A DNA stretch of 25,347 bases from a virus. The translations under genes were made by a program, and so were the position numbers. The stretch spans positions 1 to 25,347 of the IMG/VR virus record IMGVR_UViG_3300042691_012289, one strand, 5' to 3'. Position 1 is the first letter of the stretch, and the number at the start of each line of letters is the position of its first letter. Shown here in pieces: positions 1,176-25,347 of this stretch. The notes under the pieces are model-generated. The model did no database searches. It had not been told where the DNA came from and saw nothing but the letters and a program-made list of their open reading frames with translations.

Positions 1176-1187
1176 TCGGGTACGGAC

Positions 1188-1559: not shown

Positions 1560-1789
1560 TGAACACTCCCCCCAAGAAGGCTTCCAAGCCAGCGGGTCAA
1601 ATTCCAGACCCGGTACCGATGCAGACCTTCAGGGATGCGTCCGCCTTCTACGCGGCCAAAGCGGCACTCAAGGCCGCAGGCAGGGATACCCGCTCAACGG
1701 TCAGCCTTGATGGAACCATGACCTTGGGTGCTACCAACTACCAGAGACGCCCTGAAGGCAAGGGCAACAACCTGAAGCCAGCCCCGTGA
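1559..1789 (+). CDS. Small basic protein of unknown function
   Basis: 76 residues. The ATG at 1559 overlaps the previous stop by one base (TAATG), which favours this start over a longer in-frame reading from 1469 that would run deep inside the upstream gene. The N-terminus is proline- and lysine-rich (PPKKASKPAGQIPDPVP). A short alanine-rich helix follows (residues about 24-42, FYAAKAALKAAG), then a Ser/Thr/Asn-rich tail. The composition suggests a small, partly disordered virion or assembly protein. No family recognised. Its stop overlaps the next GTG start by four bases (GTGA). Confidence 0.7.
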   Translation: MNTPPKKASKPAGQIPDPVPMQTFRDASAFYAAKAALKAAGRDTRSTVSLDGTMTLGATNYQRRPEGKGNNLKPAP

Positions 1790-2532: not shown

Positions 2533-2533
2533 C

Positions 2534-2830: not shown

Positions 2831-2833
2831 TCC

Positions 2834-7647: not shown

Positions 7648-8261
7648 ACACAATGCAACTAGGGGACTACCGCGGGGGTCGTGATAGCATCACGAACCTC
7701 ATGGGTGCTCAAATTCCCCAACTTCAGAACATCAACCAAGCCGCAATCGCTTTTGGCTCTATCGGTCTTCAGGGCATGGCACAAAGACATGCCATCGAGG
7801 ACAAGTACAACCTTGAGTTGCGAAACCAGATGATGGGCAATCAAGCCCAACTTTCCGACAGGCTAATGGTCGCCAAGCAGGCCGCAGAACAGGCCGCCGT
7901 TGACGAGCAAAGCATGCTTGAGGGCGAGACTGGTGCACTTACCGACTGGTACGGCCTTGTGATGAGCAAGTACGACCCGAATAGCCAAGAGTACGCAACG
8001 GCCAAGCAGGCCTTGGACATGATTACGAAGGCTTCCAAGGGCAAGAACCTGAAGTCCAAACAGGCCTACATGAAGTGGGTCAAGGAATACGGCATTGATA
8101 AGCCTATCAACGTCGGAACTTTGGGTGGTCTCGGATTCAGGCAGAATGAGCCTGTGGCAGAAAAGCCAACCGCCGCCGCAGACAAAAAGCCCACCCCGGT
8201 CCCAGTAAACCCAAACTCATTCTGGGCAACTAGGTCCAGATTCAACTCAAAGGGACCTTAA
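7644..8261 (+). CDS. Unrecognised helical protein, possible internal virion protein
   Basis: 205 residues, ATG overlapping the previous stop (ATGA). Residues about 20-110 form a long helical stretch rich in Gln, Ala and Met (QNINQAAIAFGSIGLQGMAQ, then RLMVAKQAAEQAAVDEQSML). A basic region follows (KASKGKNLKSKQAYMKWVKEYG) and then a flexible Pro/Ala/Lys tail (EKPTAAADKKPTPVPVNP). A Gln/Ala-rich helix is typical of small podoviral internal proteins (T7 gp14 position), but no homology is claimed. An in-frame ATG lies three codons in and could be an alternative start; the overlapping ATG is preferred because of coupling. Confidence 0.75.
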   Translation: MNTMQLGDYRGGRDSITNLMGAQIPQLQNINQAAIAFGSIGLQGMAQRHAIEDKYNLELRNQMMGNQAQLSDRLMVAKQAAEQAAVDEQSMLEGETGALTDWYGLVMSKYDPNSQEYATAKQALDMITKASKGKNLKSKQAYMKWVKEYGIDKPINVGTLGGLGFRQNEPVAEKPTAAADKKPTPVPVNPNSFWATRSRFNSKGP

Positions 8262-8266
8262 TTATC

Positions 8267-10546
8267 ATGGGAATCATCAAGACTGTACTTAAAGCGGGCG
8301 ACAAGGCCATCAAGGCCGGCCAAAAACTTTACAACAACACTCCTGTTGGTAGCGTTCTGTCTCTTGGCGGCAGAGATGTTAGCAGGAAAATCACCAAGTA
8401 TGGGACAAAACTAGCCAACAAATGGGGTGCTTCAAATGCCGCCGGGACTCTTGGCGAAAGAATCGCCCTTGAGACGACAGGCCAACTGGGAAATCTGGCA
8501 CACGTCGGCGGCCTCGCGGCAGGCGGAGGCCTTTACTCTGGTGCCGCCGGTGCCGCCATGGAAAAGTTCAACCCTAGCGAGGAATACGTGAGTCCGACTG
8601 GCGAAACCGCCGACCCGGACGACCTCGCCAACGACGATGAGTTTCAGAAGTTCAAAAACCAAATCATTTACGGTCGTGCAATTACGGACGATGAGTTCGA
8701 CCAACTGGTTATCTCTGGCGAAAAAATCCCAATCAAGAACTTCGATGCCTACCAGCAGTTTTTCACAACCGAGGTCAACGAAGACGGCAGACCAGTAATC
8801 ACTCCGAAGGACGATTTGATTAGATACTGGACGGACGTTAAGGACGCTGGTGAAAACATTTACAACGGTGAGGGCGGCTGGCTTAGTAACTTCAGCCTAG
8901 ACCCTACCGATTTGTTGCCGAAAAAAGTGGGCGGTTACAGGGTCATGCCAAACGGAAGCCTTAGCGAAATGATTACAAACGGGCTCGCCGGTGGAAGCCC
9001 TGCCGACTTTACGAGAGACCCGGCCGTGCAGGAAGTCCTGAGCAAAGCACAACTTCAGCGTGATTTTGAAGAAAGGTACAGAGGTGACTATGATTTCGGC
9101 CTTCTGCGTGAAGGCGAAAGGGTCCAACTTCAAAACCCGTTCGCTGAAAGAAGCACCGAAGGCATGAGTGTTACTCGCGGCTCCAACAGGATGCTTGATG
9201 CGATGGACAAGCCAGTAGATGACGGCATGATTCATGACGAGGATTACGACACGCTGGTGAACCTTCGTAACGATGAGGGTAACGATAACACCCAGCAAAT
9301 TGCTGACATTGTCAGAAGCAGGCCGGAACTGCTTCAGTATTTCTCACCCAGCGTTGCGGCATCTATTGCCGACCAAGTTGGTGGTGCCGAAGGCAGGAAT
9401 CAGATTCTCGGAAAGGCTGGCTATTCAGGCTTTGATGCGTATGCCCCCGCCGCGACACCCGCACGAACCCCGTACGGCTCGCCCTCCTTTGCTCCGTCGG
9501 CAACCTCTGGCAGACTAAGTCCTGCTATTGCCCCGACGGCGACTCCCGCCGCCCCTGCCCCTGCCGCGGGCCCAGCCCCGACCCCCGCCGCCCCTGCCCC
9601 TGCCGCAGGCCCTGCTCCAGCCCCAGTCGCCCCAACGGCCGCAGGAAGCGGCTATGGCCCTACACGCTTCTCCCCCGGAGGCCCTAGTGCGACGACCGGA
9701 GCAACCCCAGCCGCTCCATCCACCGCCGCCACACCGGCGGCCGTTGTGGCCGCGGCGGCAAGCCCATCCTCTGCCGTTATGCCGCCAGCCTTGCTGGCAA
9801 GACCTGCCGGTGGTGCATCTGCCGCTGGAACCGCGGCCCCGATTGTCAACTTTGGTGCAGCAAGGTTTAGTTCCAACGCAGGCAGGGCCACCGCCGCCGC
9901 AGGAACCACACCACCTCCCGCTGGAACCAAGCCGCCTGCTGGCACGGCTCCAGCCCAAAAGTCCCCCGTCGACTATCGTGCCCAGCGTTATGGCTCGATG
10001 ACCCAAGACCAGATGAACACGGCATACATGAATGACGTCTTTAAGCGTAGGATGGGCTACACCAGCAAGCCAATGGATGCTCAACTTTCGGCCTTTGGCG
10101 ATGCCTATGGAATGGACGAAGGCTCGATGAATGCGGCCATGGACAGGCATTACGCTGGTGCAAAGGCTAACGCCGGTCCGTATGCCCGTGCTGTTAAGCC
10201 AGCCAACTGGGATTCTACCTACGGAGAGTGGGACCAGACCGAGCAAGACATGGCACAACTCGTACGCAGGGGCGTCGCAAGACCCGAGGAAGTCATGGGT
10301 CTGCCATCAACGGCAATGTACGGAGGCAAGCAAACCAGAGTCGGACCTTTGAGCCTTAATCTGCCAGACGCTACGAACCTTGAACAGCAGTACAGAAATC
10401 AGGCCGCAAGAACTGGAATCTTTGACAGCAGGGAACTGGCCAGAGTTCGCGGAGTTCAGTCACAAATCAATCAAGGCCAGCAAGACGTTGCGGACCTGAA
10501 CAAGACATTTGACCCACTAATTAACATCTTCAAAAAAACCAGATAA
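8267..10546 (+). CDS. Large unrecognised protein with basic N-terminus and Ala/Pro-rich linker
   Basis: 759 residues; a weak site (AAAGGGA) lies eleven bases before the ATG. The N-terminus is lysine-rich and amphipathic (KTVLKAGDKAIKAGQKLY). A glycine/alanine-rich hydrophobic segment follows at about residues 79-99 (GGLAAGGGLYSGAAGAAM). The middle (100-390) is acidic and probably folded. Residues about 390-565 are an Ala/Pro/Gly linker, including a 13-residue tandem repeat, with recurring (P/A)(T/A)RFS-like islands. The C-terminal 190 residues look helical (DQMNTAYMNDVFKRRMGY and on). The basic N-terminus plus a Gly-rich hydrophobic patch would suit membrane interaction during DNA ejection; this is inference. 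The stop is followed nine bases later by the next gene, in the same frame. Confidence 0.8.
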   Translation: MGIIKTVLKAGDKAIKAGQKLYNNTPVGSVLSLGGRDVSRKITKYGTKLANKWGASNAAGTLGERIALETTGQLGNLAHVGGLAAGGGLYSGAAGAAMEKFNPSEEYVSPTGETADPDDLANDDEFQKFKNQIIYGRAITDDEFDQLVISGEKIPIKNFDAYQQFFTTEVNEDGRPVITPKDDLIRYWTDVKDAGENIYNGEGGWLSNFSLDPTDLLPKKVGGYRVMPNGSLSEMITNGLAGGSPADFTRDPAVQEVLSKAQLQRDFEERYRGDYDFGLLREGERVQLQNPFAERSTEGMSVTRGSNRMLDAMDKPVDDGMIHDEDYDTLVNLRNDEGNDNTQQIADIVRSRPELLQYFSPSVAASIADQVGGAEGRNQILGKAGYSGFDAYAPAATPARTPYGSPSFAPSATSGRLSPAIAPTATPAAPAPAAGPAPTPAAPAPAAGPAPAPVAPTAAGSGYGPTRFSPGGPSATTGATPAAPSTAATPAAVVAAAASPSSAVMPPALLARPAGGASAAGTAAPIVNFGAARFSSNAGRATAAAGTTPPPAGTKPPAGTAPAQKSPVDYRAQRYGSMTQDQMNTAYMNDVFKRRMGYTSKPMDAQLSAFGDAYGMDEGSMNAAMDRHYAGAKANAGPYARAVKPANWDSTYGEWDQTEQDMAQLVRRGVARPEEVMGLPSTAMYGGKQTRVGPLSLNLPDATNLEQQYRNQAARTGIFDSRELARVRGVQSQINQGQQDVADLNKTFDPLINIFKKTR
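9548..9625 (+). repeat. Tandem 39-base repeat, two copies
   Basis: Units at 9548-9586 and 9587-9625 encode AAPAPAAGPAPTP and AAPAPAAGPAPAP. They differ only at a few, mostly synonymous, positions, which points to recent duplication inside the Ala/Pro linker. Confidence 0.85.
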
Positions 10547-10555
10547 CACACAAAC

Positions 10556-11344
10556 ATGGCTACTAAACCAGTTGCTACACTTGCCGAAAAATTCGGCAAA
10601 TTTATCATCGCCACCGCCAAGGGGGCTAAAAACGTAAGCGGCAGAGTGATTACAAAGCCCGGCCGCATGGGCGAAGACTTCGCCAAAGGACTTGGCGTCG
10701 GCCCTCTTAGGGTTAAGAACCCGCCTGTCAGAGGCCCGGGAGGCAGGATGTTGTCTGGCGGTGAGAAAATGACAAAGACGGGAATCGCGGCCCAAGGTGC
10801 TGGCTATGGCCTTGGATACGGGGCTCCAATTACGCTCGGCTATCAGTTGATGGGCGGAAATTCCTCCGCCGACCCGGCCGCCGCTCCAGCAGGAGTTCCA
10901 AATACGGTAGGTACTCCACGTGTTGCCAACGGTGTTGTAGATGAAAACGGAATCCCTCAGGAAGAATCTGACGCCATTGAACAGATTAACCAGAAGTTCC
11001 TTGCTGGCACCAGAAGCATGAATCCTGCTCGTTATTCCGCCATTGAAAAGATGGCACCTTGGGCCCTAGCCGCGGCCGAAAGAATGTCCGAAGATGAATT
11101 CCTCACTATGAGAAACGAACTCGTTTCTGGTAAAAGGAAAGCCGCCGATGTCCACAAGGCCATGGCAAATAGGGTTGCCCATGACCTTGAAGCGTCCAGA
11201 GACATCGGGACCAAGCCGTATGCCCTTCCGGGCGTTGAATACGACGCCCAAGGCAAGAACGGAAGGGTTGTCATGATTGTCCCCGTCAAGGGCAAGGACG
11301 GCAGATACTCCTACACCTACACCTCGGTTCCCATCGAAGAATAA
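10556..11344 (+). CDS. Unrecognised protein with Gly-rich hydrophobic segment, possible ejection protein
   Basis: 262 residues; no ribosome binding site is evident. The N-terminus is a basic amphipathic helix (TLAEKFGKFIIATAKGAKNV). It is followed by an Arg/Gly/Pro-rich stretch (VKNPPVRGPGGRM) and a glycine-rich hydrophobic segment at about 76-101 (GIAAQGAGYGLGYGAPITLG). After a Pro/Ala spacer come a helical block (about 138-205, with EKMAPWALAAAERMSEDEFL) and a beta-type C-terminus (VVMIVPVKGKDGRYSYTYTSVP). This order repeats that of the preceding gene's N-terminal part. No family recognised. Arginine is mostly AGA/AGG (12 of 15 by hand count). The stop overlaps the next start (TAATG). Confidence 0.75.
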   Translation: MATKPVATLAEKFGKFIIATAKGAKNVSGRVITKPGRMGEDFAKGLGVGPLRVKNPPVRGPGGRMLSGGEKMTKTGIAAQGAGYGLGYGAPITLGYQLMGGNSSADPAAAPAGVPNTVGTPRVANGVVDENGIPQEESDAIEQINQKFLAGTRSMNPARYSAIEKMAPWALAAAERMSEDEFLTMRNELVSGKRKAADVHKAMANRVAHDLEASRDIGTKPYALPGVEYDAQGKNGRVVMIVPVKGKDGRYSYTYTSVPIEE

Positions 11345-12333
11345 TGGAGTCCGACGACGATACCTTTTCGGTGTCACCGCAGGATGTGATGCGTAACGCT
11401 GGGCCTCAAATGGGTCCTACGCAGGGTGGCTACTACCCACAGCAATCGGAGGCCTACAGGCGTGCTGGCATGAACCCGCTTACGCCCGTAGCACATCTGT
11501 TCGAGAGCAGTGCCGTAAGGGCCAAGATGCCTGCATCCATTCAGTACCCTGAAATGGCCCAGCAAAAGCGTCAGACGTCCACTGCCCAGCAGTCGGCTTT
11601 TACCGCAGATGCTGATTTCTACGGCAACAGGATTGGGGACCTTACTGCGGCGGCCAACCTGCTGTCGGACAAGGAAGGACGTAGCACGTTTAACATGTTT
11701 GAGGACTTTGACATGGATTTTGGAGTAGGCGACGGTGCACCCAACACCCCCACCGGTAACGTAAAGTTCAGAATTGTGCCGAAGGGCGACAGGGAGGCCA
11801 TGGGTCCGGACGGAAAACCAGTAAAGATTCCCGTCTGGATTCTTGCTAAGAACAGCGGCGTGAAGTCGGTTCCGTTCAAGGGTGGTGGCGAGAATGCGGC
11901 CAAGTACAGGCAGATGCTATCTACCTCGCAAGGCCTGTTCAGGAACCTGAAGGAACTAGAAGGCATTTACAAAAACAAGACCTTCCTGAATAGGTTCAGT
12001 TGGTCCGACGAATCCACGGTGAGCAGGGGCTTGGAGGGCTTTGTCCTTCAGGACCTGTCCAAGGTATTCCAAGAGGCGAAGGCCCTTGGCGGTGCTTCGT
12101 CCGACAGGGATTTGTCTTTGATTGAGTCGATGTCTCCCCAGCGTGCCTCCACCTTCTTCGGCAGGTACAAGGGGAATGAACTGGCACTCATCAACAAACT
12201 CAGAGCCATGACCATTGAAAAGGTCAGGAGCGTCGCCTTGGCTAACGGCATGGACATGCTCCCGGAAAGCCAGCGTCAGGCCAAAGCAGTTGACACTAGC
12301 AATCTTCGTGCAAAATCCTCTGAAATCAAATGA
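11344..12333 (+). CDS. Unrecognised virion-module protein
   Basis: 329 residues, ATG overlapping the previous stop (TAATG). The first 100 residues are polar, Gln/Pro/Met-rich and probably flexible. A beta-type segment follows at about residues 135-170 (GNVKFRIVPKGDREAMGPDG then KIPVWILAKNSG). The C-terminal half is helical (KYRQMLSTSQGLFRNLKELEG). It contains GGASSDRDLSLIESMSP, a motif (G---SD-DL-LIE---P) that I recall from helical parts of other phage internal proteins, though I cannot name the family. No membrane segment. The gene lies directly before the giant gene and overlaps it by four bases (ATGA), so the two products are probably made together and may interact. Confidence 0.77.
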   Translation: MESDDDTFSVSPQDVMRNAGPQMGPTQGGYYPQQSEAYRRAGMNPLTPVAHLFESSAVRAKMPASIQYPEMAQQKRQTSTAQQSAFTADADFYGNRIGDLTAAANLLSDKEGRSTFNMFEDFDMDFGVGDGAPNTPTGNVKFRIVPKGDREAMGPDGKPVKIPVWILAKNSGVKSVPFKGGGENAAKYRQMLSTSQGLFRNLKELEGIYKNKTFLNRFSWSDESTVSRGLEGFVLQDLSKVFQEAKALGGASSDRDLSLIESMSPQRASTFFGRYKGNELALINKLRAMTIEKVRSVALANGMDMLPESQRQAKAVDTSNLRAKSSEIK

Positions 12334-15300
12334 TTCAAGGACAAGCACCCGAAGCAGGAAACCCGGAAGAATTCAACAGCGGTGCAAGGTACGCACAGCA
12401 ACTGTTTGAACTCGGCGGGTCCCTTGACCTAGGACCATCCATCGAGCAAAAGACGGACGGCTCTTATGGGGTCGCGGACATCCAGAGGCCAGAGGATGTC
12501 CTTTCTTTTTACGAGCAAAACCCAAATCTCAAGTTGGACCTTAATGCCCCCGACTGGGAGAGCACTTGGGACAAGTTGAGCGAGGGCCTTAAGAATAGGC
12601 ATACCGACTACCTTGAGATGTTCGGCGAGGCCGCTGGCCAAATTGCCAACGTTCCGTTCGACTTGGCGGAGGGCGTCGCAGAGCAAAAGAACCCCCTCAA
12701 AATCGCATACGGCGGCCTTGAGGGCACGGCTCGCTCCATCAGAGACATGTGGGGCTTCTTTGCTGAAAGCGAAAACCCGGAATCTTGGAGTTTCAAGTTC
12801 AGGTCCCTAGTCGTCGCACTTAAGGAAGGTAAAACGTCGCTTAACAAGCGTGAGCAGGCTGAACAGTGGAATAAAATCAGAGAGTTCATGTATCACTCTC
12901 ACAGGATGCAGAGCGGAGACGAATCATTCCTTGAGCAGTTTGATAGCCTTAATCTCAGCGACGACACCAAGGCCATGGTCAGGTCTTGGGTTAATCCAAA
13001 AGTTGCACACGCTTTCTCCTTCTTCGGGATGGAACTTCCGTCCCTTATCGCGGCTCCGTTCACTGGTGGTGCTTCCGCCGGTGCCGCGGTAGCCGCGGCC
13101 GAAGCCGGCGTAGTCAGGGCCGCAAAGTTGGCGGCGAATCAGAGCAGAATCATGAAGATTGGCGAATCTCTGGCCGCTTCCGAGCGAAGATTCCAGAACA
13201 TGGCCAACAAGTTTACTACCAAGTTTGCTGGCTATGCCTCATACACCGCTGGTTCCGTCATTCAGCCATTTGCAAACGTCGCTGAGTCTGTTCTCGGAGG
13301 AAGTGTTCAGGCAATTGCAGAAAGAGGCGGAATTAGCAGTCAGGCCGCTAAGAATGCTATTACGGTGTCTGTCGTCAACGGGGCCGAGAACCTAGGCGTC
13401 AGCGGAGTCAGACAGACCGTCGGCTTTGTTGGTTCATTCGGCCTCAGAACCACGGCGGAACTACTTAAGGAAATCGGGGACACGGCCCTAAACCGCGGTC
13501 TCGGAACCATCCCGGTCAACGAAATCAACGGCCTTACCGTCCTTGAGCGTGTGGCACGCTCCAAGAACCTGTCCAATACCGCGAGAATGGCCGCAAAGAC
13601 GGCCAACGTCGTCGTCGACCCCTTGCTTCAGTTGTCTACTGCTGGCCTGAAGAACGCTTACAAGGATTCGCTAATCTTTGCTGGCATCGGGTTCTGGAAT
13701 GACAGGGACCGGGGTGCCGTAGGCGGTGCCGCGGCAGGATTGGTCTGGGGCGGCTACAGCGGTGCTTTCAGGCATACTTGGGCAAACGTCAGCGGCGGCT
13801 TCCAGCACTCCCTGACAATCGACAACTTTGACAACAACTTCGTTAACTCCGCAGAAAAGTTCAACGAATCGTTTGGCAAGACGGCAAGAGAGGTAACGGC
13901 TGAGGCGGATAAATTTAAGTCAACTAAGGTTTCCGCAAACGTCAGAGCGACAATGCAGACGACGTTCATGATGCTGGACTTTGCCGACAGAAAGAACGCA
14001 CTTTTCCACGTAGGCGACATCAAGTCCCTTACCAACGAGATGAAGGCCAGAAACCTAGACATTACCCATGTCTCTAGGGTCAGCGGTCCGAAGGGCATGT
14101 TTACCTTGGCTAGAAGCCTGAAGGCCGGAGAAAAGTCCGTTCCAGTAATCTTCCTTGATAGGGCAAAATACAGACCGGTCGAGGTGCCGCACGAAATGCT
14201 TGGTCACGTCGGGTCTTATGTCCTTCACCAGAAGGGGAAACTTGGTTCGCTGATGAAGCAGTTGATTGGTACGGAGACGAACGGTGGTGCACTTGCGAAT
14301 GACGAGTTGTTGCTTGAGCCATACATCAGGAGAAAGGCCGCCGAAGAACTTCTCGCCGCAGGTGCAGGTGCTTCGATTACCGACCCTGCGATGCGGGCCA
14401 AGTTCCTCAACGAGAACATGGCTGGTTACGTGAAGATGGTCAGGGAAATCACGCACGACAGACTTCAGAGAATCAGACAATACGCCAAGGAGAACGGCGA
14501 GAAGTACTGGAATGGGGAAGTAGAAGTCGCCGACCAGAATGGTAACAAGAGAAGAATCCCGCTTGCCGAACAACTTGACGCTGAGTCGGGCATGATGATG
14601 AGGGACCTCTACGAGGAGACAATGGCTCTTGGGTCTGAAATACTTTTCACTCACAACAACATCGGCGAGGCCATGTTTGAGGGCAGTAAGCCCCTCAGAA
14701 TGTACTTTGAGCAACTCAGGTCTGAGTTCTTTGCCAAGAAACTTACGCAGAACGAACTCGCTGGCATCTTCGCCAGACACGGCGAAGTCTTTGTTGAAAA
14801 GGGCAAGAACGCCGGAAGTCCATCCGTCAACGCTATCGTTTACGACAACGGGAAGTACTACAGACACCCGGAACTTGAGGGTCTACTCAAGCAACACATC
14901 AGGCTTGCGACGGAACTTGACGCACAGGGCGTAGCAAAACTTTCACCGGAGCGTCAGGCAATCGAGGCCAGAAGATTCGGCAAGGAGTTCCTGTTTAAGT
15001 TCAACAAGTCTGGTGCCCAAATGATTGGCACCAAGGAGCAGAACGAACTGTTCACCAAGAACGCGGCCAAGTCCCTCTCTGTACTCGAAGGCCTTCCCGA
15101 TGAAATCAGGCCAGAAATCATCTTGGATGAACACGGAAACAAGTCCGTAGACATGTACAAGATGCGTGACGAGGCCTACGACGCCTTGGTCGCATCAGGT
15201 TCGCTCGACCAGCATTCTGCCACCGTCGCCAAGGGCTTCAGGGACATCATGTCCAAGTGGGAATCTAGCGGATTCTCCACTAGCAACATCGTTTCGGCCA

Positions 15301-18300
15301 CATACTACGGAGACTCGCACAGAACCAACAAGCGTGGGTTCTTGATGCGTATCTTTGGCGAGGAAACTCCGATTACGGACAGGGTTTTCGTTCCGTACGA
15401 ACTTAGACTTAATCTCAGGACGACTGACTCTGAAGGAAGGCCATTGAGGGCCCCCAGAGGCGGCATGGTAGCCACCGTTGTGGACTACATGGCCATCCAC
15501 AGGAGAAAGATGAAGAACTGGTCCAAGGCCGATTTTCAGGCCATGTTCGGTTCCATCGACAACTACAACAGGCTGTTTGACCTGTACATGATGAACATGA
15601 TGAAGGAGCCCGCGGCTAGGGTTCCCTCTGCCGAACTATTCAGGGCCGAGTTCAAGGACAAGGCCGAGCAGGTCAGAGACATGATGTGGGAGACCTTTGG
15701 CGGCAGAAGGCGTCAGGACGAATCCTACATCAACACCCCTAGGGAGGGAGTTGTCAGCAACCCGGAGGACCCCAACTATCCTATTCACAGCATGAAACTG
15801 GAGTTGATGGTCAACCCGGAGGTCATGCCGATGAGCCCTTTCCCGTACCACCATGGCCGTTCGTACGAGGGCCTGAGAAGAAACTTTTCTGTTTCTGGAT
15901 TTGAGATTTACGACAAGGAGGGCAAGCACCTCAGGGACGGTCAGGGCTACGAAATCATCATAAGCGGAAGCAAGTTCAAGGCATTCAACCCGTTCGGCAC
16001 GCTTATCGGAATCTTTGACTCCGCCAACAAGGCCGTCAAGGCAACCAGAAAGGACCTCCGCAAGATGGATGCGAGCGACATCATGCCGATGCCTGTCGCA
16101 ATCGAGGATGCCAAACTTTCCACACCGAAGGAATCCGGAGAACCGAGATACAACCGTTCGGCTTCCTATCTCCAATCGCTGAACAATGGCATCAAGCAGA
16201 GCACGGGCGTCCTAGGGGATGATGGATTTGTCCATCATTTCAAGGAGGACTTCTTGGACAACGTGTTCGACGTCCTGCACATGTCCCACGACAGGATGTG
16301 GAAGGATGACAATGGCTACTTCATCAGATACAAAGCCGATAAGAGCGGCGTCATTGACACCAGACGCTGGCAAAATAACAGGTTCCTGACGCTTTCCGAC
16401 ATTCAGAAAGACAAGGGTGCTTCGATGAACAAAATCCTAAGTAAGGCTGGCTTTACTTGGAGTTCTTCGGACATCGCGGTCATTCCATCCGCAGACAGGT
16501 CGTCCGTGGGCGTTCGAGATGCATACGTGCAAAGACTGTACGTGGAAAAGGATGGCGTTTACTCAAACTGGGAGGTCAATAGCCAAACCGGCATGCCCAC
16601 TATCTTCATTGATACCGAAGGGCTTTCCAGAGACATTCCAAACCCAAAGGCCAGAGAGAATGCGGTAAGAGCCTTGGTTGAGAATGAGGTAGAATCAATC
16701 GTCAGGCAGTACGGCAGGGAGAGCGAAGTCACAGGCGGTAATAGCGTCCACCCTAGTTACGTCAATAACGGCACAAGAGATGGTCAGATGGCACAAGTCG
16801 AGTACATCAAGAACGCACTCTCAAAGACGAAGAAGGAATTCAGCAAGGACGAGTTCATTGCCATCCAAGAAGCCAAGAGCAACTTCGCTCAAGCGATAAA
16901 CCCGTTTTCAGGTGCGGTTGATGGTGACGGCGAATTGGCCGTAGGTGGAGCGTTGGACCCTTCCAAGATAAAGACCATTAGGGATTTCAGGAAGGCTATC
17001 TCTCAAATCACACGCGGATACGAGTCCGTCATTCCAGCGTCACTTGGAGAACTTCCAGCAAAGGACGCACTGGAACTTTTGAGCATTCTCACCAGAGCCA
17101 TGACGGAGGCCTCAAAGACTTCTGATTACTGGTTCGCACCTTCCCCTAATGGAGAATTGACCGCCCTTCCAATGATGAGGGGTCCCAAGATTGCGAAAGC
17201 ATTTTCTGACTTGGAGAACTTTGCACGCACTAAACTTAACGGGCCGAACAAGGAACTGAACAACGCCTATGTGAGATTTGCAAACAAGGTCAGCCATGCT
17301 TACATTCAGATAAACAAGCATGCCGCTATTGAGGAAATGGCCGCCAAGGGAGGACCTGAGGTAATCGTTCCAAGTCTTCCTCAAAACGCCACATACAGTT
17401 ATCTGATTTCTCCGCTAATTGTTGCGAAAAATCTGGGGTATGAAAGCAAGGACGTCCTGAAGAATAGGGCACTTAGCCCGGAGTCTGATTTGAGACTTTT
17501 CCTGAATAACGGGGCGGTCTACACGATTGGTCGCGGCTCTAATTTCATCGGTGGATTCATCGGCGGCGAGGGCGACGTAGGCATGGGAAGCAATCGCTTC
17601 AAGAACCTAGCCATGCCCATTACCGATGGGCATCTTCCTATCAACACGCTAGACGGCGTATCGTTCCACAAGGCCATGGGCTGGCTTATACCCGACGCAG
17701 ATAGAGCCAGAGGAAAGCACATCGACTCGTTGCTCATCGTCTCGCTGAGTGAAATGCCAGACCGCCAGAACGAAATCATCGACGCCTACAATGGTGCCAA
17801 GCAGGCCGGAGACTATTCCGGCTTCGCCGATTTCGTGATGAATGCCGCCTCGGAGGATGGCATGCACTCAAGCATCATCGGCTCGATGGTCGTAAAGACC
17901 ATGATTGATGTGGATTCTGGGAAACTTAAGTTCAGGAGCCCAGAATACGCCAAAGACTGGACCGCTTCTCAGTTCACTAACTGGCTGTCGAGATACTGGG
18001 CACTACCGGTCAATGACGAAGCCGTCGGCATTAAGAAGTCCGAGCCCGTTGCGGTAAGAATGATTAAGGCCAAGGGCGGAGAAACATCCAAGGCCATGGA
18101 GTCCTTCAACAGAAGCCTAGCGATGCTATCCACGGCCCATAAGTGGGCCGACAGGGAAATGTACCCGGACTGGGCCAAGACCAAGTATTCCGTAGGCGAC
18201 CTCGCCATGCTTGACGACGTCAGGCGTGATGAACTCAGAAAGAAGGGCGTAGTATCTAAGGTTATGTTCGGCGGAAAGCCGCTTGAACTATTCGAGTTCT

Positions 18301-21300
18301 CTGATTCCGAAGCATCGCTTGACCTTTCAAAGGCCGCAAATCGTCCGCACATCCTTCCCTTCCTAAGCACCCCGGACCCTGAGGGTGCCTTCTCTGACTA
18401 CGCCGCGGCCGTCAGACGCAGGCTTACCCTTCCGCCTGAGCAGAGATACATCAGCGACCACATTGTCCTAGGTGAAGCCAAATTGGGCGACATCTTTGTT
18501 CATCCCGAACTGTATCGTTATTACCCTGAGTTCAGGGACATCAAAATCCACTTCAAGGACTTCCATGGCGGCAGGCACGTTAACAAGGGCGGGACAAGCG
18601 TCATCGAACTCGGCCTTCGCTCATTCGCGGCGGCTGAACTCAACCTGCCAGCCGAGCAGATGGGTAGCATCTTTAACAACCGGGAAGCCCTGAGAAGCCA
18701 GTGGATGAAGGAGAACCCGCTGTCTTCCATCATCCTGCATGAGGTCCAGCATGCCATCCAGTTGAAGCACGGCTGGCTGGGCAACAGCACTGAACTAAAT
18801 ACAATCCCGCAAAAGGTAGCCGCACATGCCTTCGGGAATCTCCTCGGGATAAAGACAAGCCTTGCCATGCAGGGCGACCTGCAAAGGGCCATCAAGGAGC
18901 CGGACGTCATGATGAGTGGCGGTAGGTTCATTGACATCTCTGAAGCAGACAAGGCGGCCAAGACAGACGCGGAACTACTTGGAAGGATGATTACAGCCGC
19001 ACAGTCTCCAGTAATCAGGTCTCTCAGGGCAAACGCCAAGCCGCTGATGGTGTCGGCCGCCAGAAACTTCGTCGACTTTATCCTATCCGAGCATGAACTC
19101 GGAAACGTGTCCGACGCCATGGCCCAAAAGGCCATGAGCCTGCACTTCGACGCCAAGTTCGCCGGAAACTTGGAAGCCGTCATCGACGTCCACCAGCGTC
19201 TGGTTGAGTTCCGCAGTGAGGCCGTCCTCACGATGCCGAACTACTCCATCAAGATGCATGACAACATGCAGTTCCGTACGGCGTACAACGCCCTCAGTCT
19301 TGTCAGCACGTTCGACGTCCTTGATGCGGCCATGCCCACCGAGGCGGCTACCCTGCTCATGCAGGCCATCGGCCACTACAAGGACATGTCCTATGTCATG
19401 GCCCCTGTCGAGAAGATGGCCCGCGAGACCGAGCGGAGACGAGGAAAGACCCAGTCCGAACTGGCCGCTGAGCCCCGCGTCGCCACCGACGACAACGTCA
19501 AGGACCCTGTCCTTAAAATCATCCGCAATGCCATGGACATGTCCAAGTTGGGCTCTGACAGGGACATGGCCAAGAACATCTACCAGAACGGCATCGCTCC
19601 CGTAATCCTGCAGTCCGTAGGCGGTCTTGGCGAGACCGACGTCACCGACTCCAGAATGCTTACCCTGATGGGCAAGGCCGTGCTGATGCACGCCATCGCC
19701 GAGACGAGCAACGGAACGCTGGACATCCTTAAGCGGGTTGCCATCAGAACCAACGGATGGCAGGTAGATAAGAACGGTCGCATGACTCTGACCACCGGAA
19801 CCCACATCCTGAAGGGTGTGACTGGTGATGAGTTCGTGGCTAACATTAAGTCGGTATTCGGGGAAGAATCCCTCAACCATACATCCGACGGCGGCAGCAT
19901 GACTATCGCCGGAACTTCCATCGCGGCGGAGGGCCACACCTACACCATCGAGGACTTGGCTGTTCTTGGCGGTGCCGTCGTGGAATCCTCAAGTGCGTTC
20001 ACCGTTGGCAACTCCGCCATCGACGCCGTCATGGCTCCGCACTTCCCGGCCTACTTCAGGGGTTCGGACATCATGGAACTGATGCGTAAGTCTGGCATCG
20101 CCACCGAGGACGCCATGGCCGTCGCCAGAGTCGAAAAAATTGCCGCGGCTTTTGCCGAAGCGACGCTGACCAAGAACGACCTTATCAACCTGATGGCTGT
20201 GAACCACAGCCAGTTCCTGATGCCGACGCAGTTGGAATCGGCCAAGGCATCTCCGTTTAACAGTGCCAAGGAAATCTTCACGGCAACGCTTGAAAATGCC
20301 ACCCCCGAAAGACGCAGGGCCTTGGTTCAAAGCGATGCTGGAAATTCATTCTTCAGGAAGGCCAACAATCTCGGAAACAACTACGGTCAGCAAACTAAGG
20401 ACTTCACGCTAGGTGCCTTCGTGGCTACTGGCCATCAAATCACTTTTGAAAGGAGCGAGGCTCCTGCTTGGGTTGTCGCCCTCGGTGGAGAAGCCGTCAG
20501 CAAGTGGGACCAAATGTCCGACCTTTTCGGAAACAGACTTCTCGAACGCGAGCGTAAGTTCTTCGTCGGGGACAAGGAACTGAGGAACGCCACCGTGGAA
20601 AGGCTGAACAATGCCTACATGGCCAAGGCTACCCTCATCGAGCCGCTTGTCGCCGAGGCAATCAAGTCCATCTCCGAGAACGATGCCATGACCAAGGAAG
20701 GCAAGTTGCAGTTGGCACTTTCGCTCATGGATGACATCGAGCGTGCCAACATGGTCATGCTGTCCTACGAAACGCTGTCCAGAGAGCATACGAGAATCAA
20801 CCTGAGCGGATTCGAGCACTCGTCCAATTTCATAAGCCGCACCGGTGCTCATAACATCTCGATGAGCGATGCCTTCCTGAAACGCACAGGCTCCAAGGAA
20901 GGACAGATGCTGGCTATTGGCGGAGGCGGCGAGTTGGCCACCAGCAACATTGATTACGGAAGAAAGGAAAACAACATCCCGCTTCTTCAGATGTCTCTGT
21001 TCGGCCCGTCTGCCGTGTCTCTGGCGGATGCGGTGTCCCACGCAACGTCCACCATTCACTCCGGTCCTTCGCCGGTCTCGACGATAATGCCCTCGTCCTA
21101 CCCTAGGATGTTCTCAGGCTCCGGTCAGTCACTTGAGAAATCCGTCCCAAGAGTCACGCTCAGTCTCCTTGGACCGAGACAGTGGGATTACGAAATCAAG
21201 TCTCAGATTACCGAGCAGTTGCAGGGGAAAATCGACAGCCGCAAACGGGAAATCGGTCGCGATAAGGACTCGCTCAGGGATGTCATGGCCGGGAGAACCG

Positions 21301-24300
21301 AGGACGTACTTGACCAGCACAAAGACCTTACCGTTGAACAGGCCGAGACTCTTTACGAGAGCCTAGTAAACGAGGAAATCTCTATCAGCAGAGACCACTA
21401 CATCGTCCAGAGGCTCAACGAGTCCGACCTTTTCCGCGAGGATTACAACTCTGACAGGAATGTTGTTGGCACTAGGGGGGTCAACACCGACATCGTCGGC
21501 AGGCGTAACATGGGCGACCAACCCGGCCAGCAAAGCATCTCCATCTCCAACGCACAGGGTCGTGTCATCGGCGACTCTCTGGTCATCGACTTGGAGCAGG
21601 TCTCCCCATCCACGGGCCCCGACGTCTACTTCGCTGGAGCAGGCGTAACCACTAGGCTCGTTCCGCTTAACGTTCGGAGAAACTACGTCAGGTCCAGAAC
21701 CTATCAGGACTTGGCCCTTGCCGTTTCCATCTTTGGCGTCGTTTCGGATAACGGGGACGAGGCCAATCCGAGAGGCACCCCGTCTAGAAGGCTTGCCCCT
21801 GTTGGCTCTCTCGCACTTGACATGACCTCTCCTGATTCGTTCGGAGGAGTTGGTTCGTACACGGTTGTCCGTGACTCCGGGCTTGCCCACGTAATGGGCG
21901 GCAATGCCGTTCTTACGGTCGGCAACCTCCTCCATGCTGGCCTCAGCGAAGGGGACATGAAGCGGTACGTCCAAGCCAACGGTACCAGAATCCAAGAGGT
22001 TTACACGGCACAAGACTCCCTGTTCAGCAAGCCAAGCACGTCGCTCGGACAGAGAATCTCCGCCAACGAACAAGGCGGCACAATCAGGGTCAACAACAGG
22101 GTCGTCGGACTTGCGGCCTCATTCCCGCTGGCCGTGTTGCTTAAGACTGGCTACATGGATTTCTGGAGCAAAGACCACCAACTTTCGGTCAGCGTTCCCA
22201 AGGCCTTCACCGGGGTTGAGTACAAGTTCCTCACCTCCGAGGACGGACTGACTGAGTTCCGGACCGGCGTGCTTGTCCCGAGCACGGAAGCCATGCTGGA
22301 TGCGTTCATCGCCAAACTGGACACCCATGCCATCGACATGATGGTCAATGAACTCAGCACGCTCCAAAACTCCAAAACGGTCTCGGACCTCTTGGGCTAC
22401 ATGAGCCTTCATGAGGTCATCGCCGAGGATGCGGCCAGACCGATTGCCAAACTTGGAGACAAGCCAATCGCCGAGTCCATCGACTTCGCACTATCCACGT
22501 CGGCACACCACAACGCGAAGATTCACGCGGCACTCGCCGACGACATCGCTGGCTTCAACCCAGCCATGACCAAGGATTACTCCCGCGTCATCGCAGAAGC
22601 CATCAGAACGAAGGATTTCTGGATTGGATTCTTCTCACAGCCAATCGCCGCTGAGGGGATGGAGACGTTCATCCCTAGGGCGAACAGCGACCAGAACATG
22701 TTCTTCACCCGCCACAGCAGGTCAGACATGAGGTCTCCTATCTTCTTCGGCACCTCCGGCGGCCCGAACATTCACAGAAACAGGACCGTGAACGGTCATG
22801 CGGTTGACAACATCGCTTGGGAGGGAGTGGACTTCAACGGCCTGCTGACTTTCAGCGATACGAAACTTGACATCAGCGACCCCAAGTTCGCATTTGCCTA
22901 TGGCGAAAAAGCGTTCAGCAAACCGGCTAACAGCGGCAGTTACCTGCTTTCTGGGTACAACACGGAGAGAGGTTTGGAGATTCCTAGGGGAGTCCTAACT
23001 ATCGGCGAATACGAAGAATGGAAGTCCTCCACCAGCAACCTGTTCCAACAGCACCTAGGCTTCGGACTTACCGAGAGCGGCGGCAAGATACTCAGAGGAG
23101 AGTCTGGTGAAATCACGAAAGTAGCCCAGCAGGAAGGCTCAAAAATCAGGGCCCTACCCCGCCCTGCGTTCCTTTCCGAAGGCACCAGAAGAACCCTGAT
23201 GGTGAACCAAATCGCCGACATGGCCCAGAAACTGGGCGTCGAGAAGGTGTCCATCCAGCCGTCCAGATACTCGGCGTCCAGCAGACCGGACATACTGCTC
23301 ACCGGCCTGCGTACCCAGCAAGACGTTGTCTCCCACGTTGCCAACTCCGGGTACGGCCTAACCAACTCTTTCACGCAAGGTCGCATGTTCGGTGCGAGAC
23401 GTAGCGTCGAGAACAAGCCGAGCCTTGGCTATTCTTGGAACAGGCTGGAAGACGGAAGAATCTTGGTCAATTTCAGCCCTGATACCAACATCATCGCCAA
23501 CGGAGACAGGGCCTACGTCCCGGTCGGTCGCAAGCATGACATCGGCATCAACCTCAGCCGAGTTCTGGGTTACAACCATGAGATGGGCGGCATCATCACC
23601 CCTCAGGACCCGCGGTTCCAAGCCACAATCGGCGGACTCGGCTTCACGCATTCCAACGTCCCGCGACCAAGGGAATCACAGCGAGTCATCAAGTATGCCT
23701 CCGACAACATCCTCGGCCACCTGCCGCTGTTGAACGCCGACGGCTCCATTGACCAAGCCTTGGTCCGCCAATACAGAAAAGGCGTCGGTGCCATGCTACG
23801 CAGAAACGTCGCAGGACCGGCCTACGCCGCAAAACTGATGTTGGATACGTCCAACCTTGGCCTCAGAAACATTCATAGGGTCGTGGGCAGGGAGGCGGAA
23901 CTTGCCTATGCGGGCAACGTTCACGACGTCGCAGGCGTCACGAATGCCGAAAGCAGGGGCGGTCTTACCGAGTTCATTCAGGGCAACGGTTCGATTATCA
24001 GCGGTCTTAACAACGACTACGGCTATGTCTCGTTCGTGCTTCCTAGGGACGCCACGATTGAGCAGTTCCAAAGAGCGGTCATGGCTTACTACATGGCGGC
24101 ATCCGAGCGTCATAACTCCGACATTTTCAGCGAGGCTGGCCTATTCAACGGCAAGTCCATGTTCGCCAACAACCAAATCAATTGGACCAGAAGCGGGACG
24201 TACATGGACGCCATTCTTTCTGGCAAGCGGGAGGAAGCAAGCGGAGCCATGGTCGACAGGGCCATCCGTGACTTCTCCAGCAGGCAATCCGAGCCCGGTT

Positions 24301-25347
24301 CCGGCGACATCACTAACGTCGCCAACAGATACGCCGAACTCCTTGGTAAACTTCATGAGAGGGACCACACCTTCGTAAGCGGCATGGAGCAGGCGTTCCA
24401 GATGATGACCAGTTCCGAGAAGGGCTATCACATGCCTCTTGCCGAGCAGAACCTCAGAAAGAGCGGCGACAGGCTTGCCGTCATCAGGGCCATGTTCCCC
24501 GGAAGAACCGAACTGGAGCAGTTCGCTTGGGACAACTCCGAGTCCATGAACCTGTCTGTGGTCGCCCCCAGCCGTGGTTCGGGCAACAAGAGTTGGATGG
24601 TCGGCTACGACAAGGTCGTCGGCTACGATTCCAGCGGCATCCCCATCAAGGAGCGTGTGGTCAGAAGCCACAGGAGCGAAGCCGAGGCACGCCAGTTCGC
24701 AGGCTCCGTCGCCAAGAGCGGTATCTTGGCCGAGCACGTCAGGATGCTTAACCTAGAATCCGAGGCTTCCATCCAGAGACTGCCCAGCGACCCGAACGTC
24801 GGTGCCGAAATCTACAAGCCAGTCAGGCTTAACGAACAGGCAATCGAGGCCGCGGGCACCGTGCTCAGGCCCGACGACACCTTCGCCGTCGGCAATTTCG
24901 CCAAAACGTTCGCCACCGAGGCTGAGGCAAAGGCGTTCCAGAGCATGGTCCTCCAGTCCGAGGCCGTCACTGGCAGGGCTCCTAAGCCAATCGAAGTCAG
25001 ACTTTCCTCCGGCGACCTGCTCTCCATGGAGCGTGACCTCAGGGAGAAAATCGGCTTCAGCACCATGGGTAGCCCGCTTCAGTTCTCCTCGACCGCGATG
25101 AACGCGATTGTACGCGGTGCCGACAGAAACAAGAACTTCAGGGACAAGGCTACCGGCCTCCAGTGGTACGAAATGCTGACGTTCAACGGCGTCGGCAAGC
25201 AGGAGATGCGTGTCCTCGGTCTTGCCCAGTTCCTTTACGACCATCGTACCCTAACCCTGTCCAGACAGGAAGTGGCCGAATACATCTACGCCATGTTCCC
25301 CATCACGGGCAGACGCTCGTTGGCGGAACGCGGAACCGCCGGGGCAT
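12330..25347 (+). CDS. Giant multi-domain phage protein (at least 4,339 residues, C-terminus outside window)
   Basis: One frame stays open from the ATG at 12330 (overlapping the previous stop, ATGA) to the window edge: 4,339 full codons with no stop. Landmarks by residue: hydrophobic Gly/Ala-rich segments at 225-262 and 446-480; a zincin-like site HEMLGH at 621-626; FVPYEL at 1020-1025 and YPIHSMKLELM at 1150-1160; a possible dead zincin NEVES at 1452-1456; a zincin HEVQH at 2137-2141; two similar F/H---EAEA--F segments near 4113 and 4195; a helical module at 4277-4325. Multi-domain phage proteins with zincins have been described as polyvalent proteins (Iyer and colleagues). I infer a virion protein delivered with the DNA that modifies or shields against host factors. 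No RNA polymerase, transglycosylase or helicase motif was found. No ribosome binding site is visible. Confidence 0.9.
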   Translation, partial: MIQGQAPEAGNPEEFNSGARYAQQLFELGGSLDLGPSIEQKTDGSYGVADIQRPEDVLSFYEQNPNLKLDLNAPDWESTWDKLSEGLKNRHTDYLEMFGEAAGQIANVPFDLAEGVAEQKNPLKIAYGGLEGTARSIRDMWGFFAESENPESWSFKFRSLVVALKEGKTSLNKREQAEQWNKIREFMYHSHRMQSGDESFLEQFDSLNLSDDTKAMVRSWVNPKVAHAFSFFGMELPSLIAAPFTGGASAGAAVAAAEAGVVRAAKLAANQSRIMKIGESLAASERRFQNMANKFTTKFAGYASYTAGSVIQPFANVAESVLGGSVQAIAERGGISSQAAKNAITVSVVNGAENLGVSGVRQTVGFVGSFGLRTTAELLKEIGDTALNRGLGTIPVNEINGLTVLERVARSKNLSNTARMAAKTANVVVDPLLQLSTAGLKNAYKDSLIFAGIGFWNDRDRGAVGGAAAGLVWGGYSGAFRHTWANVSGGFQHSLTIDNFDNNFVNSAEKFNESFGKTAREVTAEADKFKSTKVSANVRATMQTTFMMLDFADRKNALFHVGDIKSLTNEMKARNLDITHVSRVSGPKGMFTLARSLKAGEKSVPVIFLDRAKYRPVEVPHEMLGHVGSYVLHQKGKLGSLMKQLIGTETNGGALANDELLLEPYIRRKAAEELLAAGAGASITDPAMRAKFLNENMAGYVKMVREITHDRLQRIRQYAKENGEKYWNGEVEVADQNGNKRRIPLAEQLDAESGMMMRDLYEETMALGSEILFTHNNIGEAMFEGSKPLRMYFEQLRSEFFAKKLTQNELAGIFARHGEVFVEKGKNAGSPSVNAIVYDNGKYYRHPELEGLLKQHIRLATELDAQGVAKLSPERQAIEARRFGKEFLFKFNKSGAQMIGTKEQNELFTKNAAKSLSVLEGLPDEIRPEIILDEHGNKSVDMYKMRDEAYDALVASGSLDQHSATVAKGFRDIMSKWESSGFSTSNIVSATYYGDSHRTNKRGFLMRIFGEETPITDRVFVPYELRLNLRTTDSEGRPLRAPRGGMVATVVDYMAIHRRKMKNWSKADFQAMFGSIDNYNRLFDLYMMNMMKEPAARVPSAELFRAEFKDKAEQVRDMMWETFGGRRRQDESYINTPREGVVSNPEDPNYPIHSMKLELMVNPEVMPMSPFPYHHGRSYEGLRRNFSVSGFEIYDKEGKHLRDGQGYEIIISGSKFKAFNPFGTLIGIFDSANKAVKATRKDLRKMDASDIMPMPVAIEDAKLSTPKESGEPRYNRSASYLQSLNNGIKQSTGVLGDDGFVHHFKEDFLDNVFDVLHMSHDRMWKDDNGYFIRYKADKSGVIDTRRWQNNRFLTLSDIQKDKGASMNKILSKAGFTWSSSDIAVIPSADRSSVGVRDAYVQRLYVEKDGVYSNWEVNSQTGMPTIFIDTEGLSRDIPNPKARENAVRALVENEVESIVRQYGRESEVTGGNSVHPSYVNNGTRDGQMAQVEYIKNALSKTKKEFSKDEFIAIQEAKSNFAQAINPFSGAVDGDGELAVGGALDPSKIKTIRDFRKAISQITRGYESVIPASLGELPAKDALELLSILTRAMTEASKTSDYWFAPSPNGELTALPMMRGPKIAKAFSDLENFARTKLNGPNKELNNAYVRFANKVSHAYIQINKHAAIEEMAAKGGPEVIVPSLPQNATYSYLISPLIVAKNLGYESKDVLKNRALSPESDLRLFLNNGAVYTIGRGSNFIGGFIGGEGDVGMGSNRFKNLAMPITDGHLPINTLDGVSFHKAMGWLIPDADRARGKHIDSLLIVSLSEMPDRQNEIIDAYNGAKQAGDYSGFADFVMNAASEDGMHSSIIGSMVVKTMIDVDSGKLKFRSPEYAKDWTASQFTNWLSRYWALPVNDEAVGIKKSEPVAVRMIKAKGGETSKAMESFNRSLAMLSTAHKWADREMYPDWAKTKYSVGDLAMLDDVRRDELRKKGVVSKVMFGGKPLELFEFSDSEASLDLSKAANRPHILPFLSTPDPEGAFSDYAAAVRRRLTLPPEQRYISDHIVLGEAKLGDIFVHPELYRYYPEFRDIKIHFKDFHGGRHVNKGGTSVIELGLRSFAAAELNLPAEQMGSIFNNREALRSQWMKENPLSSIILHEVQHAIQLKHGWLGNSTELNTIPQKVAAHAFGNLLGIKTSLAMQGDLQRAIKEPDVMMSGGRFIDISEADKAAKTDAELLGRMITAAQSPVIRSLRANAKPLMVSAARNFVDFILSEHELGNVSDAMAQKAMSLHFDAKFAGNLEAVIDVHQRLVEFRSEAVLTMPNYSIKMHDNMQFRTAYNALSLVSTFDVLDAAMPTEAATLLMQAIGHYKDMSYVMAPVEKMARETERRRGKTQSELAAEPRVATDDNVKDPVLKIIRNAMDMSKLGSDRDMAKNIYQNGIAPVILQSVGGLGETDVTDSRMLTLMGKAVLMHAIAETSNGTLDILKRVAIRTNGWQVDKNGRMTLTTGTHILKGVTGDEFVANIKSVFGEESLNHTSDGGSMTIAGTSIAAEGHTYTIEDLAVLGGAVVESSSAFTVGNSAIDAVMAPHFPAYFRGSDIMELMRKSGIATEDAMAVARVEKIAAAFAEATLTKNDLINLMAVNHSQFLMPTQLESAKASPFNSAKEIFTATLENATPERRRALVQSDAGNSFFRKANNLGNNYGQQTKDFTLGAFVATGHQITFERSEAPAWVVALGGEAVSKWDQMSDLFGNRLLERERKFFVGDKELRNATVERLNNAYMAKATLIEPLVAEAIKSISENDAMTKEGKLQLALSLMDDIERANMVMLSYETLSREHTRINLSGFEHSSNFISRTGAHNISMSDAFLKRTGSKEGQMLAIGGGGELATSNIDYGRKENNIPLLQMSLFGPSAVSLADAVSHATSTIHSGPSPVSTIMPSSYPRMFSGSGQSLEKSVPRVTLSLLGPRQWDYEIKSQITEQLQGKIDSRKREIGRDKDSLRDVMAGRTEDVLDQHKDLTVEQAETLYESLVNEEISISRDHYIVQRLNESDLFREDYNSDRNVVGTRGVNTDIVGRRNMGDQPGQQSISISNAQGRVIGDSLVIDLEQVSPSTGPDVYFAGAGVTTRLVPLNVRRNYVRSRTYQDLALAVSIFGVVSDNGDEANPRGTPSRRLAPVGSLALDMTSPDSFGGVGSYTVVRDSGLAHVMGGNAVLTVGNLLHAGLSEGDMKRYVQANGTRIQEVYTAQDSLFSKPSTSLGQRISANEQGGTIRVNNRVVGLAASFPLAVLLKTGYMDFWSKDHQLSVSVPKAFTGVEYKFLTSEDGLTEFRTGVLVPSTEAMLDAFIAKLDTHAIDMMVNELSTLQNSKTVSDLLGYMSLHEVIAEDAARPIAKLGDKPIAESIDFALSTSAHHNAKIHAALADDIAGFNPAMTKDYSRVIAEAIRTKDFWIGFFSQPIAAEGMETFIPRANSDQNMFFTRHSRSDMRSPIFFGTSGGPNIHRNRTVNGHAVDNIAWEGVDFNGLLTFSDTKLDISDPKFAFAYGEKAFSKPANSGSYLLSGYNTERGLEIPRGVLTIGEYEEWKSSTSNLFQQHLGFGLTESGGKILRGESGEITKVAQQEGSKIRALPRPAFLSEGTRRTLMVNQIADMAQKLGVEKVSIQPSRYSASSRPDILLTGLRTQQDVVSHVANSGYGLTNSFTQGRMFGARRSVENKPSLGYSWNRLEDGRILVNFSPDTNIIANGDRAYVPVGRKHDIGINLSRVLGYNHEMGGIITPQDPRFQATIGGLGFTHSNVPRPRESQRVIKYASDNILGHLPLLNADGSIDQALVRQYRKGVGAMLRRNVAGPAYAAKLMLDTSNLGLRNIHRVVGREAELAYAGNVHDVAGVTNAESRGGLTEFIQGNGSIISGLNNDYGYVSFVLPRDATIEQFQRAVMAYYMAASERHNSDIFSEAGLFNGKSMFANNQINWTRSGTYMDAILSGKREEASGAMVDRAIRDFSSRQSEPGSGDITNVANRYAELLGKLHERDHTFVSGMEQAFQMMTSSEKGYHMPLAEQNLRKSGDRLAVIRAMFPGRTELEQFAWDNSESMNLSVVAPSRGSGNKSWMVGYDKVVGYDSSGIPIKERVVRSHRSEAEARQFAGSVAKSGILAEHVRMLNLESEASIQRLPSDPNVGAEIYKPVRLNEQAIEAAGTVLRPDDTFAVGNFAKTFATEAEAKAFQSMVLQSEAVTGRAPKPIEVRLSSGDLLSMERDLREKIGFSTMGSPLQFSSTAMNAIVRGADRNKNFRDKATGLQWYEMLTFNGVGKQEMRVLGLAQFLYDHRTLTLSRQEVAEYIYAMFPITGRRSLAERGTAGA
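13002..13115 (+). other. Hydrophobic Gly/Ala-rich segment 1 of the giant protein
   Basis: Residues 225-262. AHAFSFFGMELPSLIAAPF is followed by a run of Gly and Ala. It is long enough to insert in a membrane and has no charge over about 20 residues apart from one glutamate. Confidence 0.5.
13665..13769 (+). other. Hydrophobic Gly-rich segment 2 of the giant protein
   Basis: Residues 446-480. DSLIFAGIGFW, a charged turn (NDRDR), then AVGGAAAGLVWGGYSGAF. The helix-turn-helix pattern with G---G spacing resembles a membrane hairpin. Confidence 0.5.
14130..14640 (+). other. Zincin-like metallopeptidase domain with HExxGH motif
   Basis: The segment VIFLDRAKYRPVEVPHEMLGHVGS has the strand-then-helix layout of zincins, with HEMLGH at 14190-14207 (residues 621-626). 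The second His is one position later than in HExxH. This HExxGH spacing is known from dipeptidyl peptidase III (M49, HELLGH). A candidate third ligand is Glu 762/763 in YEETMALGSE (14613 on), about 141 residues later. Folding and activity are unproven. Confidence 0.55.
16219..16238 (+). other. Short perfect hairpin inside the giant gene
   Basis: ATGATGGA, loop TTTG, TCCATCAT: eight paired bases, extendable by two G-U pairs and one G-C. No T-run follows, so it is not a terminator. It sits in coding sequence for DDGFVHH and may be chance. Confidence 0.35.
16591..16750 (+). other. Possible degenerate zincin segment
   Basis: MPTIFIDTEGL, then RALVENEVESIVRQYG. NEVES (16683-16697) aligns with the HEVQH of the later zincin, with both His replaced (Asn and Ser) and Glu and Val kept. 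A GG follows as in related domains. It would be catalytically dead. Confidence 0.3.
17613..17633 (+). other. Second short perfect hairpin inside the giant gene
   Basis: ATGCCCAT, loop TACCG, ATGGGCAT: eight paired bases. No T-run follows. It lies in coding sequence (AMPITDGH) and may be chance. Confidence 0.35.
18400..19120 (+). other. Zincin-like metallopeptidase domain with HEVQH motif
   Basis: LGDIFVHPELYRYYPEFRDIKIHF (residue 2052 on), a glycine-rich strand ending VIELGLRSF, then LSSIILHEVQHAIQ. This is the order I know from zincins of large phage proteins (LYxxYPxLxDIxV, then LLHEIQHAIQ). HEVQH lies at 18738-18752 (residues 2137-2141). A candidate third ligand is Glu 2254 or 2256 in SEHELGNV (19086 on), the position where relatives often have GE-EAR. 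Confidence 0.75.
25158..25305 (+). other. Small helical module shared with large phage proteins
   Basis: LQWYEMLTFNGVGKQEMRVLG, then LAQFLYDH and LTLSRQEVAEYIYAMFP. It resembles a recurrent module with the pattern QW---L---GV--EE--W-GL--FL----(V/L)T--E---(Y/F)(I/L) that I recall from phage polyvalent proteins. Recognised by pattern only. Confidence 0.5.

Follow-up and report, generated by a model that had tools for sequence, protein, structure and literature searches.

A giant gene at the end of a phage virion block, predicted to encode a packaged and ejected polyvalent-type protein

The window analysed here, i.e., the whole 25,347-base stretch that makes up IMG/VR record IMGVR_UViG_3300042691_012289, breaks off inside a giant gene which we consider, with a probability of roughly 0.8, to encode an unusually large internal virion protein of the polyvalent type, about 5.7 thousand residues long, that is packaged and ejected. 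This reading is drawn from the gene order, the absence of cysteine, homology to DUF6782, a conserved HEXXXH motif and the lack of similarity to the virion RNA polymerase (vRNAP) of phage N4; an ejected zincin/polyvalent protein in place of a polymerase is the best-supported interpretation of these sequence features. We infer packaging, ejection and proteolysis, as well as the purpose of the remaining chain. What is unusual about the protein is its size relative to the genome and its near lack of recognisable domains.

Extent, surroundings and conservation of the gene

The ORF scan of the window places an ATG-started, forward-strand frame of 4,339 codons at 12330-25347, confirming the uninterrupted frame of the preliminary description. 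The frame is 3'-open; as the window is a complete record, the gene is cut by a contig break. Its genomic setting is as follows:

3-1175, + strand: major capsid protein (MCP) of the SU10_MCP family, 5' truncated (Pfam PF17236, E 2e-25; phrog_1328)
5522-6946, + strand: virion structural gene, 474 aa (weak phrog_3287 match, E 0.002)
7644-8261, + strand: 205-aa gene without cysteine, probable ejection protein from position and composition
8267-10546, + strand: 759-aa gene with a Pro/Ala-rich repeat and no cysteine, probable ejection protein from position and composition
10556-11344, + strand: 262-aa gene without cysteine, probable ejection protein from position and composition only
11344-12333, + strand: 329-aa ejection-type gene without cysteine, adjoining the giant gene (weak phrog_1419 tail match; its stop overlaps the giant gene's ATG)
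12330-25347, + strand: giant gene, initial 4,339 codons out of about 5,672 (ORF and homologues; 3' end off the contig)
21564-25346, + strand: part of the giant gene common to positions 1-3783 of the contig L002 at 98%, by sequence match; L002 runs on to the stop

The proposed extension to a stop codon was reached through L002 (IMGVR_UViG_3300027697_000048), which matches residues 3079-4339 of the giant protein (the last 1,261 codons) at 98%, adds 1,333 codons beyond the window and then ends the frame with a TGA. The gene would hence span about 5,672 codons as a composite of the window and a near-identical contig; the 5,672-aa sequence joins two parts of one protein for alignment and is the only assembly made. 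Its predicted mass is about 620 kDa. The distal end of L002 carries homologues, judged from gene length and order, of the window genes at about 5.5-8.3 kb, so that the two records, taken together, come close to a closed genome of about 48 kb.

In the window plus L002, as in the related contig G008, the genes run from terminase through portal, scaffold, MCP, tail genes and then small cysteine-free genes to the giant gene, which is followed in L002 by lysis-like, Erf-type annealing, DnaC-like and replication genes. The position directly 3' of tail and ejection-type genes, claimed earlier, is thus borne out, and a location beside late/virion genes in a tailed phage with portal-terminase packaging is that of polyvalent proteins. 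The previously noted stop-start overlap is likewise present in the window (ATGA at 12330-12333); it is not kept in relatives, where the two genes are merely closely spaced. Around the giant gene there is no excess of promoters or terminators. Elsewhere in the window, a tail-fibre-like gene contains two 66-bp tandem copies (the SHAISDVTNLQTTL repeat) at 2993-3124, the 759-aa cysteine-free gene includes a linker-like, Pro/Ala-rich tandem repeat with a 39-bp unit at 9521-9633, and a 3'-open frame of 513 codons lies antisense to the MCP gene at 3-1541 on the minus strand, most likely a GC-rich shadow frame.

Contigs of the same phage group (17 in number) were gathered via the L002 portal gene and then subjected to protein searches for the giant gene. 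Three are single contigs with intact homologues devoid of internal stops, namely G008 (5,749 aa in 48,761 b), G012 (5,737 aa in 48,615 b) and G014 (5,715 aa in 48,775 b), in which the gene takes up about 35% of genomes of about 48.7 kb. These proteins are about 30% identical to the window protein overall. Local identity to the window protein is 40-68% over the greater part of residues 100-500 and 800-1200. It is near 45% in the segments 2000-2100 and 4200-4300 and 48% in the segment 5400-5500, i.e., conserved blocks are spread along the entire chain, with the N-terminal third well conserved. Third codon positions account for 57 of the 87 differences between the window contig and L002 and for 1,188 of the 1,607 between the homologues G007 and G010; on these alignments the gene is under purifying selection. 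More distant homologues, at about 25% identity, are L094 and L115/L116. Neither a first scan of genome contigs nor tblastn of both halves, the C-terminus, the G012 homologue and the distant L094 against 50,697 phages gave any match.

Zinc-site motifs and the link to polyvalent proteins

Two candidate zinc sites lie in the window part of the chain:

14190-14207, + strand: motif 1, HEMLGH (codons 621-626), an HEXXXH zinc site with H-E-x-L-x-H invariant in all six members covering it
18447-18839, + strand: zincin-like metallopeptidase domain (codons 2040-2170), conserved in all seven members and homologous to residues 1297-1382 (DUF6782) of the protein of contig L105
18738-18752, + strand: motif 2, HEVQH (codons 2137-2141), with HE(A/V)QH conserved in every member covering it

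The consensus of the second domain across seven members reads TLGxxFxHxxxYxYYPExxD ... IELGxRSF ... NPLxSIxLHE(A/V)QHxxQ. Searched against 84,980 prokaryote genomes, this domain recovered a single relative, a 2,295-aa ORF in the contig of an Oscillospiraceae MAG (L105:933-7817). This contig is a possible prophage, and its protein is a cysteine-free polyvalent protein matching the Pfam models LPD23 (5e-23), PBECR3 (4e-9) and DUF6782, a "putative metallopeptidase" (2e-7), together with LPD3 (1e-5) just below its cut-off. Within the DUF6782 match, the L105 protein aligns at residues 1297-1382 with residues 2041-2154 of the window protein (BLASTP E 7e-7 in a database of four sequences; hhalign probability 94%). 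The window zincin is therefore tied to a polyvalent protein by homology, beyond the motif alone. With this homology and the conserved HEXXXH, a variant already described for polyvalent metallopeptidases (PMC5512222) and also seen in PTXU04 gp25, CF418P1 and Vibrio 1.232.O, the protein shows the zincin-like domain with HEXXH/HEXXXH expected of the polyvalent class, although the Pfam model for the polyvalent metallopeptidase, PF18818, has no match in any member contig.

A third conserved block, at residues ~4590-4680 with (I/L)EE(L/I)QSD at ~4650, is encoded past the end of the window, in L002, and is kept as far out as L094 and L115; similar blocks presumably occur in polyvalent proteins. An HERDH at residue 4009 was considered as a further zinc site and rejected as it is not conserved. 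Since only 7-10 relatives exist, the zinc ligands besides H-E-H are not fixed. In addition, the distant homologue at L115:3-11558 (as also L116) bears a C-terminal helix-turn-helix domain (Pfam HTH_28, E 2e-7), which is absent from the Pfam matches of the window protein.

Pfam, PHROG and NCBIfam yielded no family for the window protein, and profile searches of the PDB with four segments of the giant protein returned chance hits only. Most of the chain is, in these searches, without a recognisable relative, with one short domain tied to a known family. Hence, the earlier mention of zincins and polyvalent-type modules stands for the zincins, whereas the plural "modules" is only partly justified, given one domain assigned by homology (DUF6782-like) and one by motif only (HEXXXH). 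The structure prediction suggested at that stage was carried out for part of the chain, with AlphaFold on seven sequences, and gave models of too low confidence to be used as evidence (mean pLDDT 43.8 for residues 1880-2660 and 40.5 for residues 125-1320); the order of elements around HEXXXH, namely a strand, a helix, two strands and a motif-bearing helix, is compatible with a zincin, and a Foldseek search of the PDB with the second model, residues 125-1320, found no match.

Cysteine absence, ejection and alternative readings

The uniform protein-like composition remarked on earlier holds throughout the chain, which has no TM-like segments, a Kyte-Doolittle mean of about -0.4 and, above all, no cysteine. 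The composite protein has none in 5,672 residues, with 58 expected from the phage's other genes (71 in 6,930 aa, or 1.02%). In the window part, no TGY codon is observed against 68 expected from position-specific base frequencies, whereas TGG is normal (39 against 31 expected). The four window genes preceding the giant gene also lack cysteine (0 in 1,555 aa), and the homologues have none (G008, G015), two (G012, G010, G007) or four (G014).

Calibration on known ejection proteins gives the same picture: T7 gp15 and gp16 have no cysteine in 747 and 1,318 residues and gp14 has one in 196; P22 gp7, gp20 and gp16 together have none in 1,309; N4 vRNAP has none in 3,500, and gp51 and gp52 none in 794; and PTXU04 gp19 and gp21-gp25 have none, gp20 being left out of the count. 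By contrast, the capsid, portal, tail and terminase genes of these four phages mostly contain cysteine, the cysteine-free exceptions among other virion genes being scaffolds, P22 gp26 and the N4 MCP. A virion-block position coupled to cysteine depletion is therefore common to the giant protein and the ejection proteins of T7, P22 and N4. In N4-like vRNAPs, the absence of cysteine has been tied to passage through the tail and periplasm (PMC2784036, PMC3715699, PMC3915230). It is a strong mark of ejection, yet not an absolute one, with 0-4 in members and 13 in the 3,954 aa of the distant homologue (~25% identity) at L094:1-11862, unlike all closer members; the latter may have a differing host or entry route. 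Ejection blocks are marked by successive genes without cysteine in T7 (gp15/gp16), P22 (gp7/gp20/gp16), N4 (gp50-gp52) and PTXU04 (gp19-gp25, gp20 being left out), and the window has such a run at 7644-12333. In unannotated phage genomes, runs of this kind may help to pick out ejected proteins from sequence alone: the signature was earlier known for N4-like vRNAP and here extends to T7, P22, N4, PTXU04 and other polyvalent giants.

The earlier proposal of a packaged and injected protein accordingly gains support from the gene order, from a cysteine absence calibrated on proven ejection proteins and from the polyvalent homology. The giant protein would be synthesised late, at the same time as the capsid, tail and ejection proteins, and would be stored inside the head close to the portal. 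The chain might then be threaded through the tail and envelope alongside the first DNA, as for DEV gp71 (PMC10925440), and we propose that it lacks cysteine because the ejection route could cross-link it. The two zincin sites would probably cut either their own chain or host proteins, inside the cell or already in the head, and this cleavage could set free domains that ready the host for infection; such roles of zincins, in processing or against host proteins, have been proposed for polyvalent proteins (PMC5512222).

An unlikely alternative is that the protein serves mainly as a structural ejection channel or pilot comparable to T7 gp16, one that retains only vestiges of protease domains and does not act as an effector inside the host. 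The cysteine absence and virion-block position would suit such a protein, as would the well-conserved N-terminal third and the long helices predicted there by the low-confidence AlphaFold model. However, the chain is four times the length of T7 gp16, its conserved blocks run along the full length, the zinc-site H, E and H are invariant, favouring active sites, and the relatives L115/L116 end in the DNA-binding helix-turn-helix domain. It is very unlikely that the protein is a divergent N4-type vRNAP, ejected to transcribe early genes: it does resemble N4 vRNAP in its place in the gene order, its size class and its lack of cysteine, but the window part has no Pfam vRNAP domain, whereas N4 itself strongly matches four, and in hhalign comparisons of family segments with N4 vRNAP the probability stayed at or below 15%. 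Neither Pfam nor hhalign, then, detects a single-subunit RNAP module, in keeping with the earlier statement that the visible domains are not those of a polymerase. That the protein stays out of the virion and works late in the cytoplasm, as an assembly factor or protease, is highly improbable in view of the cysteine absence, the location and the homology to the polyvalent protein of L105. Finally, an assembly or frame artefact has a negligible likelihood and was rejected, since several independent contigs hold intact frames at 30% identity under purifying selection, no point was found in its favour, the chance occurrence of so long an open frame is nil, and the single-contig homologues have no internal stop of the kind contemplated earlier.

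Comparison with known systems

Returning to the ejected polyvalent-type protein, its closest counterparts are compared here. Phage polyvalent proteins (Iyer et al. 2017, PMC5512222) are similarly large, adjoin late virion genes and carry a zincin-like metallopeptidase with the HEXXXH variant, and the phage examples tested here also lack cysteine; they differ in size, the phage examples considered here having 1.2-3.3 thousand aa whereas the giant protein has about 5.7 thousand and takes up 35% of a genome of 48.7 kb, and in that no Pfam LPD, ART, PBECR, methylase or helicase domain is detected in the giant chain (window plus L002). Polyvalent giants occupy the same genomic place in PTXU04 (gp25), Vibrio phage 1.232.O (gp28) and Achromobacter phage CF418P1. 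PTXU04 gp25 (2,198 aa), which is needed for infection (PMC11879866), is likewise the final large gene of its virion block, following a cysteine-free run, with an HEXXXH site and no cysteine; unlike the giant protein it has LPD38, and it is 2.6 times shorter. Phage C75C1, which has a 28% identical portal, carries in the giant gene's place a 1,343-aa cysteine-free protein (L007:2595-6626) with no detectable similarity to it. The hhalign comparisons of the giant-protein family with PTXU04 gp25 and with C75C1 revealed no similarity.

The T7 gp16 and P22 ejection proteins are also cysteine-free and at the end of the virion block, but they are 229-1,318 aa long and have no sequence match to the giant protein in the phage collection at E<=0.01. 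We know of no protease domain in the P22 ejection proteins. The N4-like vRNAPs (N4 gp50; DEV gp71) are again giant, cysteine-free and placed at the end of the virion block, and N4 vRNAP has an HEXXH; they are themselves proven to be packaged and ejected. No polymerase domain in the giant protein, nor any similarity to them, was found.

One protein takes about 35% of a 48.7-kb phage genome here, as compared with about 14% for an N4-like vRNAP (PMC4837373). If a 620-kDa chain passes through a podovirus tail, the limits of protein ejection and refolding become testable. Tentatively, and with somewhat less than even odds, these proteins could be viewed as a distinct lineage of ejected megaproteins, a near-constant unit of 5.7 thousand residues confined to a single phage group, where a third of a small genome would be given over to a ready-made, polymerase-free takeover protein with domains unlike any described, the absence of cysteine being a general, sequence-only mark of everything that short-tailed phages push through the envelope.
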